From assembly GCA_947072715.1 (NCBI GenBank), contig CAMTJB010000006.1, forward strand, positions 1 to 15,490: 15,490 nucleotides of DNA. Reading direction: 5' to 3'. Positions within the stretch are counted from its first letter, which is position 1. Each line of letters opens with the position of its first letter. Made by a program: the position numbers and the translations under genes. Source of the stretch: an uncultured Fusobacteriaceae bacterium. Its GTDB lineage: Bacteria > Fusobacteriota > Fusobacteriia > Fusobacteriales > Fusobacteriaceae. Shown here piece after piece: positions 1 to 9,773 of the stretch. A model generated the notes under the pieces. That model had not been told where the DNA came from and did not search any database. It saw nothing but the letters and a program-made list of their open reading frames with translations.

Positions 1-1120
1 ACTTTCAGATGCAAGATTCTTCTATAATGAAGATTTAAAAGAGCCTCTTCATAAGAGTGTAGAGAAGCTTAAAACAGTTGTTTACCAGAAAGATTTAGGA
101 ACTATCTATGATAAAATAGAGAGAATGGAAAAGATAGCAGGTGCAATAGTTGAAAAGTGTGGTTTAGAAAGTAAAAAAGAAAATATAGAGAGAACAATAT
201 ATCTTTGTAAAGCAGATTTAGTATCTAACATGATTGGAGAAAAAGAGTTTACAAAACTTCAAGGATTTATGGGAGCGGAGTATGCACTTAAATCAGGAGA
301 AAATGAAGCAGTTTCAATAGGAATAAAAGAACATTACTACCCAAGATTCCAAGGAGATATATTACCTTCAGGAATAGAGGGAGCTATTGCAGGTATATGC
401 GATAAGTTAGATACTCTTGTTGGTTGTTTTGCTGTAGGTCTTATTCCAACTGGATCAAAAGATCCTTTTGCTTTAAGAAGAGCAGCTTTAGGTGTAGTTA
501 ATGTAATTCTTAACTCAAAATTAGAGTTTTCTATTCAAGATATTATGAAGTTTGCACTTGATATTTTAGAAGAAAAAGGTCTTTTAAAAAGAGATAAAGC
601 TCTTATTTTAAAAGATTTAGAAGAGTTTATGTTAAATAGAATATTAAATGTGTTTTCTGATTTAGGATATTCTAAAGATGTTGTATCTGCTGTTTTAAAT
701 GCAAAACACTTAACTTTATTAGAGATGAGAGATATGATTCAAGCTTTAGAAACATTAAAGCAAGAGCCTATTGAATACAATAAATTAGTTAATGTAGTAA
801 AAAGAATAGCTAATATATCAAAAGAGTGTAAAGAAGCAAGATTTGTAGAGGAGTTAATTAAAGAGCAAGTTGAGAAAGATTTATTCTTCTTTATGAGTGA
901 ATTTGATGATAAGACTACAACTCTAAATAATGAGAAGAAGTATGTTGAGTACATGAAAGAGATGATTTTAGCAACTCCAATAATTGAAAAATATTTTGAA
1001 GAAGTTATGATTATGGATAAAGATGAGACAATAAAAAATAATAGATTATCACAAATGAAAATTTTAGATAATATGTTTAATAAAGTTGTTAATTTTAGAT
1101 TATTAGAAAATACATTATAA
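1..1120 (+). CDS. glyS: Glycyl-tRNA synthetase beta subunit, 3' part (5' end outside window)
   Basis: Beta chain of the alpha2-beta2 glycyl-tRNA synthetase, which helps charge tRNA-Gly in the cytoplasm. The frame is open from base 2 (LSDARFFYNEDL...), so the true start lies upstream; the ATG at 125 is internal. Visible family blocks are KADLVSNMIGEKEFTKLQGFMG, the EHYYPRFQGDILP segment, and DKLDTLVGCFAVGLIPTGSKDPFALRR, the strongly conserved core of the family. The C-terminal part, ending IKNNRLSQMKILDNMFNKV, matches the helical anticodon-binding region. About 373 codons are seen, roughly the C-terminal half of a chain that is normally near 690 residues. The gene stops at TAA 1118-1120 and is followed by 141 bases without a gene. 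The alpha-chain gene (glyQ) would be expected just upstream. Identification is very secure. Confidence 0.97.
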   Translation, partial: LSDARFFYNEDLKEPLHKSVEKLKTVVYQKDLGTIYDKIERMEKIAGAIVEKCGLESKKENIERTIYLCKADLVSNMIGEKEFTKLQGFMGAEYALKSGENEAVSIGIKEHYYPRFQGDILPSGIEGAIAGICDKLDTLVGCFAVGLIPTGSKDPFALRRAALGVVNVILNSKLEFSIQDIMKFALDILEEKGLLKRDKALILKDLEEFMLNRILNVFSDLGYSKDVVSAVLNAKHLTLLEMRDMIQALETLKQEPIEYNKLVNVVKRIANISKECKEARFVEELIKEQVEKDLFFFMSEFDDKTTTLNNEKKYVEYMKEMILATPIIEKYFEEVMIMDKDETIKNNRLSQMKILDNMFNKVVNFRLLENTL

Positions 1121-1215
1121 TAATTTTAAACATGCTATTATTGTTATAAAAAATAAAGTATTTATTACAACAAAAAAATATGATATATTAAATATAAGAT
1201 TTATTTAATTTGAGA

Positions 1216-1248
1216 GGGGTAGCTAATAATTTAGGTACCCCTTTTTTT
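1216..1248 (+). terminator. Intrinsic terminator or leader hairpin between glyS and kdsB
   Basis: GGGGTA (1216-1221) pairs with TACCCC (1236-1241). Inside this, CTAA (1223-1226) pairs with TTAG (1231-1234) across one G-G mismatch, leaving a 4-base loop. A run of seven T follows (1242-1248). Only two bases separate the T-run from the AGGAGG ribosome site of kdsB (1251-1256), so kdsB must be transcribed through this structure. It may be the glyS terminator with read-through, or an attenuator in the kdsB leader. Confidence 0.8.
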
Positions 1249-1261
1249 CTAGGAGGAAGGG

Positions 1262-1999
1262 ATGAAGTTTTTAGGAGTTATTCCAGCAAGATATGCTTCA
1301 ACAAGATTAGAAGCAAAACCATTAAAAGATATAGAAGGTTACCCAATGATAGAGTGGGTTTATAAAAGAACTAGGCTATCTAAGTTAGATAGAGTTGTAA
1401 TTGCAACAGATGATATGAGAATATATAATGCAGTTTTAGAATTTGGTGGAGATGCAGTATTAACAAGAGAGGATCATCAAAATGGAACAAGTAGAATAGC
1501 AGAAGTATGTGAAAAAATTACAGGTTATGATGTTATAATAAATGTTCAAGGTGATGAGCCACTTATAGAGCCCGATATGATAAATACTCTTATAGAAGCT
1601 TTTAAAGAGGAAAAAGACTTAATAATGGGTACATTAAAACATAGACTTTCAAAAATGGAAGATATAGAGAATCCAAATGTTGTAAAAGTTGTTTCAGATA
1701 AAAATGATTATGCAATTTACTTTTCTAGAAGTGTTGTACCTTACCCAAGAAGTTTAGATATAAATAACTATTTTAAGCATGTGGGTATATACGGTTATAA
1801 ATCAGATTTTGTAAAAAAATACTCTGAGATGGAATCAACACCTCTTGAAAAATCAGAGTCTTTGGAGCAATTAAGAGTTTTAGAAAATGGATATAAGATT
1901 AAAGTAATTGAAACTCCTTTTGAAATAGTTGGAGTAGACACTATAGAAGATTTAGAAAGAGTAAGAGCAATTGTGAAAGAGAAAAAAATAAACATCTAG
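1262..1999 (+). CDS. kdsB: 3-deoxy-manno-octulosonate cytidylyltransferase (CMP-Kdo synthetase)
   Basis: Activates Kdo with CTP to give CMP-Kdo, the donor for the inner core of lipopolysaccharide, in the cytoplasm. The 245 residues are the usual family length. The N-terminal nucleotide-binding stretch IPARYASTRLEAKPL (residues 7-21) replaces the more common RLPGKP with RLEAKP. VQGDEPLIEP (95-104) holds the acidic residues D98/E99 of the active site. HVGIYGY (173-179), ESLEQLRVLENGYKI (199-213) and the metal-binding D226 in VDTIEDLERV complete the family pattern. ATG 1262 follows AGGAGG (1251-1256) with a 5-base gap. The gene is 20 bases ahead of the SpoIID-type gene and close to uvrA, so the three may be one transcript. 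Its presence argues for a Gram-negative organism with Kdo-containing LPS. Confidence 0.96.
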   Translation: MKFLGVIPARYASTRLEAKPLKDIEGYPMIEWVYKRTRLSKLDRVVIATDDMRIYNAVLEFGGDAVLTREDHQNGTSRIAEVCEKITGYDVIINVQGDEPLIEPDMINTLIEAFKEEKDLIMGTLKHRLSKMEDIENPNVVKVVSDKNDYAIYFSRSVVPYPRSLDINNYFKHVGIYGYKSDFVKKYSEMESTPLEKSESLEQLRVLENGYKIKVIETPFEIVGVDTIEDLERVRAIVKEKKINI

Positions 2000-3549: not shown

Positions 3550-6420
3550 ATGTTAGATAAAATAATAATAAAAGGCGCAAGACAGCACAATTTAAAAAAT
3601 ATCAATATAGAAATTCCTAAAAATGAATTTGTTGTAATAACAGGAGTAAGTGGAAGTGGAAAATCTTCCCTTGCTTTTGATACAATTTATTCAGAAGGGC
3701 AGAGAAGATACGTAGAATCTCTGTCAGCTTATGCAAGACAATTTATTGGTCAAATGAATAAACCAGATGTGGATAGTATTGAAGGGTTAGCACCAGCAAT
3801 ATCAATAGAGCAGAAAACAACCAATAAAAACCCTCGTTCAACAGTTGGAACAATAACAGAAGTCTATGATTATATGAGGCTTCTTTTTGCTCACGTAGGT
3901 ATAGCCCATTGTCCAATATGTGGGACTGTGGTATCAAAACAATCTGTTGAAGAAATAATTAACAATGTGGTAGAAAAATTTGAAGTTGGTGGAAAATTAA
4001 TTGTATTATCACCTTTAGTAAAAGGGAAAAAGGGAACTCATAAAAATTTGTTTTTAAATTTAGTAAAAAAAGGTTATGTAAGATGCAGAGTAAATGGAGA
4101 AATTCTTTATTTAGAAGAGGATATTGAATTAGACAAAAATAAGAAACATGATATTGAAGTTGTTGTTGATAGACTTGTTATAAAAAGAGAAGATGAAGAG
4201 TTTATAAGTAGATTAACTCAAAGTGTTGAAAGCGGAGTAGAGCTTTCAAATGGGAAAATAATATTAAATGTAGATGGAATAGACTACCACTATAGTGAAA
4301 ACTTTAGTTGCCCTTATCATGAGGAGGTAAGTATTCCAGAGCTTAGTCCAAGACTATTTTCTTTTAATGCTCCTTATGGTGCTTGTCCTCAATGTAAAGG
4401 GATTGGAAAAAATCTAGAAGTAGACGAGAATAGATTGATATTAGATGAAAATTTATCTATTAGTGATGGAGCTATATATGTTCCTGGAGCTGCTGCAAGA
4501 AATACATATTCATGGGAAATATTTACGGCTATGTGCAGAGCTTTTAAAATAGATTTAAAAATTCCCTTTAAAGATTTACCTAAAGAGGATAAGGAAATTA
4601 TTTTTAAAGGAACAAAAGGGAAAAAATTTAGACTAGATTATGATGGGGATTCTTTTAGCTTTCATGGTGAAAGGGAATTTGAAGGTATAGTAAATAATCT
4701 AGAGAGAAGATATAAGGAATCTTTCTCAGAAGCTCAAAAAGAAGAGATAGAAAACAAGTATATGATTGAAAAAATATGTACGTTGTGTCACGGAAAAAGA
4801 TTAAGAGATGAAGTATTAGCTGTAACTGTAGGAGATAAAAATATTGCAGAGATTTGTGATATGAGTATAAGAAATTCATTAGAATTTTTTGAAAAGATAA
4901 CTCTTACAGAGAAAGAAAAAAAGATAGCTTCAGAAATTTTAAAAGAGATAAAAGAAAGACTGAACTTTATGATAAATGTGGGACTAGACTATCTGACACT
5001 GTCTAGAGAAACAAAAACACTATCTGGTGGAGAATCTCAAAGAATTAGATTAGCAACCCAAATTGGATCAGGTTTAACAGGTGTATTATATGTTTTAGAT
5101 GAACCTAGTATAGGATTACACCAAAGAGATAATGATAAACTTTTAGTAACGTTGAATAGATTGAAATCATTAGGTAATACACTAATTGTTGTAGAACATG
5201 ATGAAGATACAATGATGCAAGCGGACTATATAATAGATATAGGACCAAAAGCAGGGGTGGAAGGTGGACATATTATATTTGCCGGAAAACCTGAAGATTT
5301 ATTGAAATGTGAAGAATCTTTAACAGGAAAGTATCTAAAGAAAGAGTTAAATATAGAGATTCCTGAAAAGAGAAGAGAGTTTACAGAAACTATAGTTTTA
5401 AAAGGGGCTAATGGTAATAACCTTAAAAATGTAGATATAGAAATTCCTAGAGGGGTTATGACAGTTGTTACAGGAGTAAGCGGAAGTGGAAAATCAACAC
5501 TTATAAATCAAACATTATTTCCAATACTATTTAATAAATTAAATAAGGGAAAATTATATCCATTGGAGTATTCAGAAATTAGTGGTATAGAAAATTTAGA
5601 TAAAGTAGTTGATATAGATCAGTCACCAATAGGAAAGACTCCGAGATCCAATCCTGCTACTTACACAAAAATATTTGACGAGATAAGAGATATTTTTGCT
5701 GAAAGTAAAGAAGCTAAAATGAGGGGTTATAATAAAGGACGTTTCTCATTTAATGTAAAAGGTGGAAGATGTGAAGCATGTCAAGGTGCAGGAATTATAA
5801 AAATAGAGATGAATTTTTTACCAGATGTTTATGTTGAATGTGAAATTTGTAAAGGAAAAAGATATAATAAAGAAACTTTAGATGTGCATTATAAAGGAAA
5901 AAATATATCTGATGTTTTGGAGATGACAGTTCAAGAGGGATATGAATTCTTTAAGAATGTTCCTCAATTAGAAAGAAAACTAAAGATATTAATAGATGTA
6001 GGTCTAGATTATATAAAAATCGGTCAACCTTCTACAACTTTATCTGGTGGAGAAGCTCAGAGGATAAAGTTAGCAACTGAATTATCTAAAACAAATCAAG
6101 GAAGAAATATATATATATTAGATGAGCCAACTACAGGGCTACATTTTGAAGATATTAATAAATTGTTAGGTGTTTTAAATAGATTAGTTGAAAAAGGAAA
6201 TACAGTTGTAGTTATAGAACATAACTTAGATGTAATAAAATCAGCTGACTATATTATTGATATTGGACCTGAAGGTGGAGAAAAAGGTGGAATGGTTATT
6301 GCTAAGGGAACTCCAGAAGAAGTAGCCAAGTCTAAAAAAAGTTATACAGGATATTATATAAAAAGAGAGTTAGATTCTTTGAAGAAAATAAGAAGTAAGG
6401 AAACAAAGAAGAAAAAGTAA
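3550..6420 (+). CDS. uvrA: Excinuclease ABC subunit A
   Basis: Damage-recognition ATPase of nucleotide excision repair; it loads UvrB on DNA lesions in the cytoplasm. The 956 residues are a normal length. There are two ABC ATPase halves. The first has Walker A GVSGSGKS (32-39, K38), zinc ligands starting CPIC (121-124), a further CPYH/CPQC zinc module in the insertion domain, and signature LSGGESQR (from 491) followed by VLDEPSIGLH. The second has Walker A GVSGSGKS (from 642, K648), the DNA-binding zinc finger C741-x2-C744...C764-x2-C767, and LSGGEAQR (from 831) followed by ILDEPTTGLH. The lysine-rich C-terminus (SKETKKKK) is a minor peculiarity. The start ATG 3550 has GTGAGG just upstream (3540-3545). 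No uvrB or uvrC is in the window. The gene ends before a strong bidirectional terminator. Confidence 0.98.
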   Translation: MLDKIIIKGARQHNLKNINIEIPKNEFVVITGVSGSGKSSLAFDTIYSEGQRRYVESLSAYARQFIGQMNKPDVDSIEGLAPAISIEQKTTNKNPRSTVGTITEVYDYMRLLFAHVGIAHCPICGTVVSKQSVEEIINNVVEKFEVGGKLIVLSPLVKGKKGTHKNLFLNLVKKGYVRCRVNGEILYLEEDIELDKNKKHDIEVVVDRLVIKREDEEFISRLTQSVESGVELSNGKIILNVDGIDYHYSENFSCPYHEEVSIPELSPRLFSFNAPYGACPQCKGIGKNLEVDENRLILDENLSISDGAIYVPGAAARNTYSWEIFTAMCRAFKIDLKIPFKDLPKEDKEIIFKGTKGKKFRLDYDGDSFSFHGEREFEGIVNNLERRYKESFSEAQKEEIENKYMIEKICTLCHGKRLRDEVLAVTVGDKNIAEICDMSIRNSLEFFEKITLTEKEKKIASEILKEIKERLNFMINVGLDYLTLSRETKTLSGGESQRIRLATQIGSGLTGVLYVLDEPSIGLHQRDNDKLLVTLNRLKSLGNTLIVVEHDEDTMMQADYIIDIGPKAGVEGGHIIFAGKPEDLLKCEESLTGKYLKKELNIEIPEKRREFTETIVLKGANGNNLKNVDIEIPRGVMTVVTGVSGSGKSTLINQTLFPILFNKLNKGKLYPLEYSEISGIENLDKVVDIDQSPIGKTPRSNPATYTKIFDEIRDIFAESKEAKMRGYNKGRFSFNVKGGRCEACQGAGIIKIEMNFLPDVYVECEICKGKRYNKETLDVHYKGKNISDVLEMTVQEGYEFFKNVPQLERKLKILIDVGLDYIKIGQPSTTLSGGEAQRIKLATELSKTNQGRNIYILDEPTTGLHFEDINKLLGVLNRLVEKGNTVVVIEHNLDVIKSADYIIDIGPEGGEKGGMVIAKGTPEEVAKSKKSYTGYYIKRELDSLKKIRSKETKKKK

Positions 6421-6437
6421 ATATATAAACAAAAAAT

Positions 6438-6471
6438 AAAAAGAGCCAATTATTAATAATTGGCTCTTTTT
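6438..6471. terminator. Bidirectional terminator shared by uvrA (+) and the first small RNA (-)
   Basis: AGAGCCAATTATT (6442-6454) is followed directly by its exact reverse complement AATAATTGGCTCT (6455-6467), giving a perfect palindrome whose apex must form the loop. It is flanked by A-runs on the left and T-runs on the right, so it gives a stem plus U-tract when read in either direction. It closes uvrA on the plus strand and would end the minus-strand small RNA that runs from about 6565. Confidence 0.9.
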
Positions 6472-6565
6472 ATTAATTTTATCATAAATTCTCTGGGGGA
6501 GAAATTACTAGTAAAGTTAAATAATTAAACATCCTTGGGGAGGAAGGTATTATTATTTTCTTTAT
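6438..6565 (-). ncRNA. Putative small regulatory RNA, copy A (about 120-130 nt)
   Basis: No database match is claimed; the call rests on promoter, body and terminator lying in order on the minus strand. Downstream of the promoter at 6601-6564 the RNA would carry a hairpin CCUU-CCUCCCC-AAGG (6547-6533) with the C-rich loop exposed. A second hairpin follows, UUCUC-CCCCA-GAGAA (6503-6489), then an AU-rich linker and the terminator palindrome (6467-6438). The second hairpin and its flanks (6482-6507) are nearly identical to copy B. The loops CCUCCCC and CCCCA resemble anti-Shine-Dalgarno seeds. A 16-codon frame starts at 6533 but is not conserved in copy B. The start point is estimated. F. nucleatum has sigma-E-dependent sRNAs (FoxI, FoxJ); whether these are homologues cannot be judged here. 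Confidence 0.6.
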
Positions 6566-6601
6566 TATAGTATTTTGACGGTGATAAATATAAAAAAGTT
6601 T
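6564..6601 (-). promoter_or_regulatory. Putative ECF-sigma-type promoter of small RNA copy A
   Basis: Read on the minus strand: AAAC (6601-6598) followed by TTTTTT, then CGTC (6580-6577) exactly 17 bases after AAC, and AAAATACTATAAT down to 6564. AAC in the -35 and CGT/GTC in the -10 element are the hallmarks of ECF sigma promoters; the TATAAT further down could alternatively serve the housekeeping sigma. The same elements and spacing recur at copy B while the bases between them differ, which supports function. Confidence 0.55.
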
Positions 6602-6639
6602 AAAAAATATTTTAAATAAGTAAAAAAATGAATTAAAAT

Positions 6640-6671
6640 AAAAAAGGAGCCGATAAAATCAGCTCTTTTTT
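6640..6671 (-). terminator. Intrinsic terminator of small RNA copy B
   Basis: Read on the minus strand: an A-run, then GAGCTGA (6665-6659), loop TTTTA (6658-6654), TCGGCTC (6653-6647) making seven pairs with one U-G wobble, then C and a run of six T (6645-6640). It probably also ends transcripts of the gene at 6786-7295. Confidence 0.8.
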
Positions 6672-6740
6672 ATTAAGTATAATAAATTCTCTGGGGGGAG
6701 AAATTATTGGCAGATCAATAACTGAAACTCTTTTTTCAAT
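6640..6740 (-). ncRNA. Putative small regulatory RNA, copy B (about 100 nt)
   Basis: Homologous to copy A and in the same orientation, about 198 bases away. The minus-strand RNA would hold the hairpin UUCUC-CCCCCA-GAGAA (within 6689-6703) with an exposed C-run, preceded by AAUAA and followed by UUUAUUAUACUUAAUAAAAAA as in copy A. It then ends in a terminator. It lacks the additional CCUCCCC-loop hairpin of copy A, so the two may share one seed and differ in another. No convincing start codon with ribosome site lies in it. The preceding gene on this strand (stop at 6786) has no terminator of its own before this unit, so a 3'-UTR-derived longer form is also possible. Confidence 0.6.
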
Positions 6741-6776
6741 TATAATATTTTGACGCGAAAGTTTACAAAAAAGTTT
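6739..6776 (-). promoter_or_regulatory. Putative ECF-sigma-type promoter of small RNA copy B
   Basis: Read on the minus strand: AAAC (6776-6773) followed by TTTTTTG, then CGTC (6755-6752) 17 bases after AAC, then AAAATATTATAAT ending at 6739. Element order, spacing and the string CGTCAAAATA match copy A, while the bases between the elements differ. It starts 10 bases beyond the stop codon of the C_GCAxxG_C_C gene. Confidence 0.55.
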
Positions 6777-6785
6777 AAAAAAAAA

Positions 6786-7295
6786 TTATTTTTCTAAAAT
6801 TGTATATCCTAACTCTCTTGCTAGTATTCTACCTGTTATCTCAACAACTTCACCAGTCATATTTACACAGTGTTTTAAGTGTTCTTTACTTCCTAATTCT
6901 TTTCCTTTAGTAAGTATTTTACAACAAGCAACTTTATGTGTTTTAGTAAATTCCTCATATAACTCTTTAGAAAGTAACATTGCTTTTTTAACTTCTTTTC
7001 CTTTAGATTGATTTCTACCAAAGAACATTCCTATAGCCATGACACCGGCATTAACAGCTCCGCAAGTACACATAGAGCCACCAATACCAACAGGAAAACC
7101 AGAGGCTAATTTTATTACATTATCATCAAATTCATTAGGGAAATGACTTAAAATAACCTTTATAACAGCTTCAGAGCAAAAGAAATCTCTGTTTCTATAT
7201 AATTCTTCCCCTTCTTTTCTTAATTGTAAAATATTTATTGTATTATCATCCATTTGTATTTTTTCTTTTTTTCTAAAAAAAAGTTTCTTTAGCAT
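6786..7295 (-). CDS. C_GCAxxG_C_C family cysteine-rich (putative redox) protein
   Basis: A small cytoplasmic protein of a family named for its conserved cysteine and glycine pattern; a redox or metal-linked role is often presumed but its biochemistry is not established. The 169 residues show C40 in FFCSEAVI, then ASGFPVGIGGSMCTCGAVNAG (C76, C78 and G84 give the C-x-CGA-x3-G core), ACC (C124, C125) and HCVNMTGEVVEI (C143). No signal peptide or membrane segment is seen. The lysine-rich N-terminus (residues 1-14) precedes a second Met at 15, but the ATG at 7295 is preferred because GGAGG lies at 7306-7302 with a 6-base gap. It is transcribed away from ruvA across an AT-rich palindrome and points toward the two small RNA units, with only about ten bases before the first of their promoters. 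Confidence 0.85.
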   Translation of the reverse strand: MLKKLFFRKKEKIQMDDNTINILQLRKEGEELYRNRDFFCSEAVIKVILSHFPNEFDDNVIKLASGFPVGIGGSMCTCGAVNAGVMAIGMFFGRNQSKGKEVKKAMLLSKELYEEFTKTHKVACCKILTKGKELGSKEHLKHCVNMTGEVVEITGRILARELGYTILEK

Positions 7296-7365
7296 TTAAA
7301 GCCTCCATTTATATATTCTATTTATATTTTATTTTTTTATATTATATTTTATCATAAATTTGTTT

Positions 7366-7401
7366 TTTATTTTATATTATATAGGTATAATATAAAATAA
7401 A
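7366..7401. promoter_or_regulatory. Perfect 16-bp inverted repeat carrying a -10-like TATAAT on each strand
   Basis: The left arm (7366-7381) and right arm (7386-7401) are exact reverse complements around TAGG. The right arm begins TATAAT (7386-7391), and the left arm holds the same hexamer on the minus strand (7381-7376). Lying between two divergent genes, it could be an operator or a back-to-back promoter pair. The composition is purely A/T in the arms, so chance similarity is a concern, and no clear -35 box was found for either direction. Confidence 0.4.
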
Positions 7402-9680: not shown

Positions 9681-9720
9681 AGATAGAATTTTAAAATATA
9701 TAATTACAGTTTTGCTGTAA

Positions 9721-9757
9721 GAGATGTTCGGAACCCTCCATCTATAAAAAACTAGGT
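9721..9757 (+). promoter_or_regulatory. preQ1-I riboswitch aptamer
   Basis: Senses preQ1 (7-aminomethyl-7-deazaguanine). Stem P1 is AGATG (9722-9726) with CATCT (9739-9743). The 12-base loop (9727-9738) begins TTCGG and contains the ACCC segment expected to hold the ligand-binding C. The A-rich tail ATAAAAAACTAGG (9744-9756) is the family's most recognisable part and folds back on the loop as a pseudoknot; ending in GG suggests the type 2 variant. A 6-bp hairpin (9704-9720) abuts the 5' side. Its position upstream of queF, queC, queD and queE agrees with the ligand. Repression by preQ1 is inferred from the downstream terminator. Confidence 0.92.
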
Positions 9758-9773
9758 CATAAACTAGACAACG

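Follow-up and report, generated by a model that had tools for sequence, protein, structure and literature searches.

FoxI and FoxJ are sigma-E-dependent small RNAs (sRNAs) of Fusobacterium nucleatum (PMC11005410, PMC12153356); in one paper, FunR7 is likewise assigned to the sigma-E regulon. According to PMC11005410, foxJ lies between der and ylmH, and its transcript of about 156 nt carries a C-stretch seed in a hairpin loop. The same source describes F. nucleatum as lacking Hfq and ProQ, and the porin FomA as a target of FoxJ.

Here, we analysed a window of 15,490 nucleotides (the whole stretch of DNA shown above) from an uncultured Fusobacteriaceae bacterium, in which the minus strand carries two paralogous cassettes, each with a promoter ahead of a short, non-coding body that carries C-runs and a terminator behind it. 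Similar to FoxJ as described, both copies possess a sigma-E-type promoter, AAACTT-N15-CGTC, a likeness at the level of the motif, and their C-runs are placed in predicted hairpin loops, a feature that is weak when compared with shuffled sequences. In contrast to foxJ, the window units are situated between uvrA and a C_GCAxxG gene, their RNAs are estimated from promoter to terminator at only about 100 and 130 nt, and they form a tandem pair of mutual homologs, of which copy A has two loops. Since C-run units are found just 3' of der in the two relatives G049 and G017, as for foxJ, and a loop string is shared, the window units look FoxJ-like with differing locus and length, whereby they are likened to FoxJ by its description and not by its sequence. 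A sequence-only reading of this DNA had pointed to FoxI and FoxJ for comparison, which proved apt; our comparison adds to it that both promoters are sigma-E-like in their motif. The pair belongs to a group of such RNAs that is widespread in fusobacteria and has been described only little. A literature search, with most subscription papers outside its scope, retrieved no paper on fusobacterial sigma-E sRNAs in tandem or in multiple copies.

Outside the fusobacteria, the closest design is that of LhrC1-5 from Listeria monocytogenes, which combines multiple copies, UCCC loops and envelope stress. These near-identical copies are encoded by the lhrC1-4 locus and lhrC5, and UCCC motifs in loops and in a single-stranded stretch are connected with translation block, cell-envelope stress and LisRK control (PMC4132741). 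However, LhrC is under the two-component system LisRK in a Gram-positive host, and the window units have no match to the LhrC family in Rfam. CcsR RNAs carry a C-rich loop motif. CcsR1-4 of Rhodobacter sphaeroides derive from a single RpoHI/RpoHII precursor with a DUF1127 protein and are cut by RNase E (PMC10253847). They resemble the window pair in being homologous sRNAs that lie in a cluster and are controlled by stress sigma factors, whereas in the window a separate promoter and terminator belong to every cassette. OmrA and OmrB are encoded by adjacent genes, have outer-membrane targets and are under a different regulator. These homologous twin sRNAs of Escherichia coli are described to pair with the assistance of an RNA chaperone (PMC12692685). 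The window pair shares the twin arrangement with them but differs in sequence and from their chaperone-aided mode.

Anatomy of the cassette pair and its conservation

The coordinates of all elements are collected in Table 1. The sequence-only reading had placed the pair at 6438..6776, which is nearly right, the actual extent being 6776-6435. It had described two minus-strand units about 198 bases apart, each with promoter-like elements, a body and a terminator, and all these parts were recovered by inspection of the sequence; the hairpins are separated by 198 nt and the promoters by 175 nt. The letters of the shared UUCUC/GAGAA hairpin, with its loop CCCCA in copy A or CCCCCA in copy B, had been read correctly, and the extra copy A hairpin with loop CCUCCCC is indeed present. 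Between the copies, the promoter regions are 75% identical over 57 nt and the C-loop region is 95% identical over 20 nt. The tandem copy brings a second predicted seed type, CCUCCCC in A1 in comparison with UCUCCCCC in A2 and B. By this comparison, both cassettes can with little doubt be regarded as sRNA genes, presumably transcribed from their own promoters.

Table 1. Elements of the two cassettes and their neighbouring genes in the window.
Feature	Position	Strand	Remark
Copy B -35 element AAACTT, sigma-E type	6771..6776	-	15 nt from CGTC
Copy B -10 core CGTC(AAAAT)	6752..6755	-	followed by TATAAT, 6744-6739
Copy B putative sRNA body and terminator	6642..6742	-	about 100 nt, predicted transcript ends
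Copy B C-loop hairpin UUCUC-CCCCCA-GAGAA	6687..6702	-	predicted seed
Copy B intrinsic terminator	6647..6665	-	also first terminator-like site 3' of the C_GCAxxG gene
Copy A -35 element AAACTT, sigma-E type	6596..6601	-	
Copy A -10 core CGTC(AAAAT)	6577..6580	-	15 nt from AAACTT; followed by TATAAT, 6569-6564
Copy A putative sRNA body and terminator	6435..6566	-	about 130 nt, predicted transcript ends
Copy A first C-loop hairpin CCUU-CCUCCCC-AAGG	6533..6547	-	predicted seed 1 (A1)
Copy A second C-loop hairpin UUCUC-CCCCA-GAGAA	6489..6503	-	predicted seed 2 (A2)
Terminator A, perfectly palindromic, bidirectional	6435..6474		common to copy A (-) and uvrA (+)
uvrA, convergent neighbour	3550..6420	+	Pfam
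C_GCAxxG_C_C family redox protein gene, upstream same-strand neighbour	6786..7295	-	Pfam PF09719, NCBIfam TIGR01909

Copy B is predicted to fold with a minimum free energy of -22.5 kcal/mol and a mean unpaired probability of 0.84 for its C-run, and copy A with -34.2 kcal/mol and values of 1.00 and 0.80 for its two C-runs. Terminator-like sites number 3 in 5800-7400 on both strands, one of the two sites being scored on both strands, compared with a mean of 0.4 after shuffling. The claim that stems are kept while loops vary was not supported, as the C-loop stems are without compensatory changes, the stem in G048 is one pair shorter, and shuffled flanks form comparable loops in 77, 55 and 60% of cases for the three C-runs of the window. 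Both copies have a perfect TATAAT behind the -10 element of sigma-E type, and TATAAT- or TGTAAT-like hexamers occupy the corresponding place in many related units; possibly this is an overlapping housekeeping promoter with basal expression.

Several other identities were considered and rejected. A small protein has no usable reading frame, in line with the earlier statement that no protein is encoded: the region contains no ORF of at least 60 aa, and the longest ATG-started frame on the minus strand has 16 codons. A cis-acting leader or riboswitch is contradicted by the lack of a minus-strand gene 3' of copy A before the convergent uvrA and of any Rfam match at threshold, and an antisense RNA to uvrA by terminator A, which stops at 6435, before the uvrA 3' end at 6420. 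No described Rfam sRNA family reaches its curated cut-off in 6435-6776; the 27 matches at E<=5 all remain under their own family's threshold, and none is named LhrC. The only Rfam family at its cut-off in the window is PreQ1, a riboswitch aptamer at 9717-9761 (+) that scores 39.3 versus 39 bits and precedes QueF-, QueC- and PTPS-family genes.

The UvrA protein of the window is most similar by score to that of G048 (90% identity), followed by those of G050 and G049. Absence from close relatives had been named as evidence against sRNA genes; G048, the one close relative tested, has a unit in this place. This single unit is situated at the uvrA 3' end, with a xanthine dehydrogenase-like gene as the other neighbour and no adjacent C_GCAxxG gene, and it is like copy A in that both have CUCCCCAAG as the first C-run. 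When window A, window B and the G048 unit are aligned, the -35 element, CGTCAAAAT and UUCUCCCCC(C)AGAGA are invariant (copy A having one C fewer) and the spacers diverge, so that outside the promoter the invariant part comprises the C-run and its flanks. The only compensatory changes were found in terminator A, where 4 of 16 pairs are doubly compensated in G048, 12 are unchanged and none is broken; since this terminator also serves uvrA, its compensation is not evidence for the sRNA alone. A scan of 32 uvrA loci with A(A/G)CTT-N14..16-(C/A)GTC found an adjacent promoter with C-run only in G048, and therefore the uvrA placement seems local to the clade of the window and G048. A whole-unit DNA similarity scan returned mostly AT-rich noise, with useful matches in G048, G036 and G049.

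Promoter type and spread of the units in Fusobacteriota

Both copies have a promoter of the type AAACTT-N15-CGTCAAAAT. In 98 Fusobacteriota genomes, the pattern AACTTTTT-N12-CGTC-NN-AA gave 77 matches in 45 genomes versus 55 for the backward-read control, which divide into 65 versus 23 in G001-G053 and 12 versus 32 in the remaining genomes. Their surroundings were inspected except for one match each in G007, G043 and G044 and 12 in G055-G091. In the relatives, the motif stands before ECF sigma genes at 8 loci, before clpB at 2 and before an OmpH/Skp-like gene at 1, and many other sites precede short C-rich units with terminators. Sigma-70 regions are present in all eight sigma genes (by Pfam in six of them), and the NCBIfam sigma70-ECF model was above cut-off in all four tested; the RpoE equivalog model gave 62-66 bits against a cut-off of 236. 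Both clpB genes encode ClpB or Clp/AAA domains, and the OmpH match of 28.1 bits, under the cut-off of 32.4, belongs to a protein cut by the contig end. It has been reported that foxI, foxJ and rpoE have common -10/-35 motifs and that skp and clpB are members of the sigma-E regulon (PMC11005410). Because the same motif heads ECF-sigma, clpB and OmpH/Skp-like genes in relatives, we regard the promoter as sigma-E type, an assignment by motif that compares the window with its relatives, the F. nucleatum promoters being outside the alignment. Judged by this regulon, sigma-E control of the window copies is very likely.

The association of this promoter with C-runs is clear. A run of at least four C within 130 nt downstream occurs at 45 of 69 scorable promoter sites, compared with 2119 of 20000 random windows (10.6%) from the same loci. 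The 69 sites include the two of the window and remain from 70 distinct ones, one being cut by a contig end, after merging matches with identical first 70 nt; some of the loci came from C-rich searches, and most of their promoters also matched the promoter-only pattern. By the rule of promoter plus C4+ run, units exist in at least 30 of the 98 genomes, and further ones with AGTC or TGTC in place of CGTC are found in G017, G038, G039, G052 and G053. The strict combination of promoter and CUCCCC gave 8 matches in 4 of 98 genomes and none when read backward.

Tandem units outside the window were observed in five genomes. G049 has four promoters 96 bp apart on C7, up to the contig end, and two in tandem on C2, and G023 has two. 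In G015 the third of three tandem promoters, and in G036 the first of two, is without a C4 run; G050 shows a repeated unit body cut by the contig end. G011 contains six units, which are dispersed. As several arrays lie at or near contig ends (L169 1-322, the end of L161, the start of L130), assemblies may break there and real copy numbers may be higher.

The C-runs are displayed in different ways. Genomes like G001 and G002, the two of Cetobacterium, have one linear C-run and a second one in the terminator loop, and across units the C-run is presented in a loop in 32 of 55 cases versus 23.4 by shuffling, mildly above expectation. The loop string TTCTCYCCCCNNAGA has 18 matches in 15 of 98 genomes, against 7 in the backward control, including units of G016, G017, G018, G038, G039, G048, G049, G052 and G053. 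Ten further matches were examined. A clear AAACTT-N15-NGTC promoter is present in four of them (G038, G039, G052, G053), five (G036, G046, G050, G051, G097) are coding or unclear, and in G020 there is just a -10-like string. A MAFFT alignment of nine short hairpins was misaligned and left out. The distribution suggests that the design of sigma-E promoter and C-run seed is found throughout the Fusobacteriaceae, Cetobacterium among them, with several copies that in some cases form tandem arrays.

Sigma-E-type promoters were also seen ahead of other sequences. Downstream of those at about 2047 (-) of L115 (G007) and about 2044 (-) of L124 (G011) stands a leader or RNA, CAUCACACAGUUUCAAA..., which is long, similar in both and has no C-run, and in L124 a secreted-protein-like ORF begins about 420 nt past the promoter. 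At about 727 (+) of L200 (G048), a sigma-E-like AAACATTTT...TTCGTCAAAAT precedes a small secreted-protein-like gene near der.

Porin translation starts as predicted targets and alternative explanations

The units are in several cases neighbours of porin genes. In G016, G018 and G038, the next gene downstream of a unit, in the same orientation, scores above the NCBIfam cut-off for FomA (major outer membrane protein), and in G049 a unit is convergent with a gene matching the FomA family porin model. The FomA-like translation starts, GGGGAGAUC in G016 and G018, GGGGAGGAAC in G049 and GGGGGAGAAAAUU in G050, have Shine-Dalgarno sequences complementary to the C-runs. In G048, a 1.5-Mb genome in many contigs, no FomA match was found at E<=1e-10.

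When starts were ranked by duplex energy with the units of their own genome, against control sets of 12-35 starts per genome, 20 FomA-like starts, which are not independent since they include paralogs and related genomes, had a mean fractional rank of 0.18, with 16 of 20 at or below 0.20 and four at 0.42-0.67. FomA-like genes with a non-fitting Shine-Dalgarno sequence (at least L251 and L253) were left out here, and both this ranking and that with the window seeds excluded loci selected through GGGGAG. The pool for the window seeds comprised 593 starts, 17 of them FomA-like. The best FomA-like start was that of G050 for seeds B and A2, with 0.3% and 1.4% of non-FomA starts as strong, respectively, and that of G049 for seed A1, with 0.5%; these figures are only suggestive because each refers to the best of 17 FomA-like starts. 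Many other FomA-like starts were unremarkable, and several non-FomA starts pair equally well or better. Two of ten starts read in the window itself are within the strongest 5% for one seed; with A1, the start at 1262 (cytidylyltransferase gene) reached -19.5, and with B, an ATG inside the SpoIID-like gene reached -21.2.

Exchanging sRNA groups and porin starts between lineages, a test confounded by kinship, gave a mixed result, as the sRNAs of the G019-G024 group form stronger pairs with porin starts of the Cetobacterium type than with those of their own group. Counts of GGGGAG near ATG exceeded the backward control only moderately among the matches listed (G048 121 versus 85, G049 50 versus 39, G050 85 versus 44) and give no basis for naming targets. 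The earlier proposal of exposed C-runs as potential partners of the Shine-Dalgarno sequences in outer-membrane protein mRNAs is upheld by the comparison. On complementarity, porin targeting by the window sRNAs appears somewhat favoured. As a separate observation, L134, L136, L137 and related units of G019-G024 carry UUCAUAAAAUUCUUUCCCC, the reverse complement of an ideal start (GGGGAAAG-AAUUUU-AUG-AA), and could therefore cover Shine-Dalgarno sequence and start codon together.

Overall, we consider it likely that the locus encodes FoxI/FoxJ-like, sigma-E-dependent sRNAs which repress porin translation and are arranged as a tandem pair at uvrA. Each cassette would be an sRNA gene in its own right. 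When the envelope is stressed or oxygen stress arises, an ECF sigma factor of the sigma-E type would transcribe it from AAACTT-N15-CGTCAAAAT, and the own terminator of each cassette would end transcription to yield an RNA of 95-130 nt with C-runs in small loops. These C-runs may pair with the purine-rich Shine-Dalgarno sequence (GGGGAGA or GGGGAGG type) of outer-membrane protein mRNAs, chiefly of FomA-family porins, whereby covering of this region would block translation. A1 would be expected to act on GGGGAGG-type starts and A2 and B on GGGGGAGAAA-type starts. The units would then constitute the non-coding repressor arm of the sigma-E response, as in FoxI/FoxJ of F. nucleatum, with the tandem copy raising the dose and adding a second seed type.

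It is rather unlikely, though the strongest of the alternatives, that the units are real sigma-E-type sRNAs whose main action is not porin repression but FoxJ-like activation of operon-terminal genes via intra-operonic terminators, or generic anti-Shine-Dalgarno pairing on many mRNAs. FoxJ is described to repress fomA and also to activate other genes (PMC11005410), and many non-FomA starts score equally well with the window seeds; nevertheless, in most of the tested genomes the FomA-like starts come out clearly better than the median, and units adjoin fomA-family genes in four genomes. A further explanation takes copy B as the terminator of the C_GCAxxG mRNA together with an RNA derived from its 3'-UTR, and copy A as a mere uvrA terminator, with the promoter motifs unused. 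Counted from the final base of the C_GCAxxG stop codon, the -35 element of copy B does start 10 nt further on, no other terminator-like site exists between this gene and copy B, and the palindromic terminator A is able to serve uvrA. This is improbable in view of G048, where a unit with the same promoter is found at uvrA without a neighbouring C_GCAxxG gene, and of the recurrence of the promoter and C-run cassette beside unrelated genes in many genomes.

That functionless AT-rich promoter-like motifs and C-runs have met by chance is highly improbable. Taken over all 98 genomes, the promoter pattern is not rare relative to its backward control, and TTCTCYCCCCNNAGA alone also has matches in the backward reading; but in G001-G053 the promoter counts exceed those of the control, and the sequence downstream is strongly non-random. 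Moreover, the arrangement AACTT-N15-CGTCA followed by CUCCCC within 12-60 nt occurs twice in the window and never in 500 dinucleotide shuffles, and window A, window B and G048 retain seed and promoter despite diverged spacers. With the spread of the design suggested above, it becomes directly testable whether porin repression by sigma-E sRNAs is ancient in the phylum, and how sRNA arrays grow and specialise in bacteria reported to be without Hfq and ProQ.

Cassette arrays and the der neighbourhood

In G049, the array on C7 lies directly 3' of der (355-1647, minus strand) and runs from 322 downwards. In G017, der is followed by a unit under an AGTC promoter, which measures about 163 nt when estimated likewise from promoter to terminator; it was recognised by reading the sequence and not by scans requiring CGTC, and its C-loop region is near-identical to those of the G016 and G018 units. 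Among the der neighbours, those scans gave a single looser match, in G036, and otherwise no clear unit.

Tentatively, and against somewhat unfavourable odds, the non-coding sigma-E arm of the Fusobacteriaceae may be pictured as evolving in the form of a self-contained cassette of about 96-200 bp, which duplicates in tandem and settles at uvrA, der, fomA and disA. Array length would then set the dose of the porin brake, copies would re-tune their seeds to Shine-Dalgarno variants, and the window pair (CCUCCCC versus UCUCCCCC) would represent an early stage.

Another element was noticed 3' of der in G020, G021, G019, G024, G022 and G023 (L190, L196, L204, L205, L206 and L207, respectively), where AAUCUUUCCCCAA and AUAUUUUAUAUAUUAGAUAAC are conserved and followed by a terminator-like hairpin. 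It has no AAACTT-N15-CGTC promoter and is perhaps another C-seed sRNA under different control.
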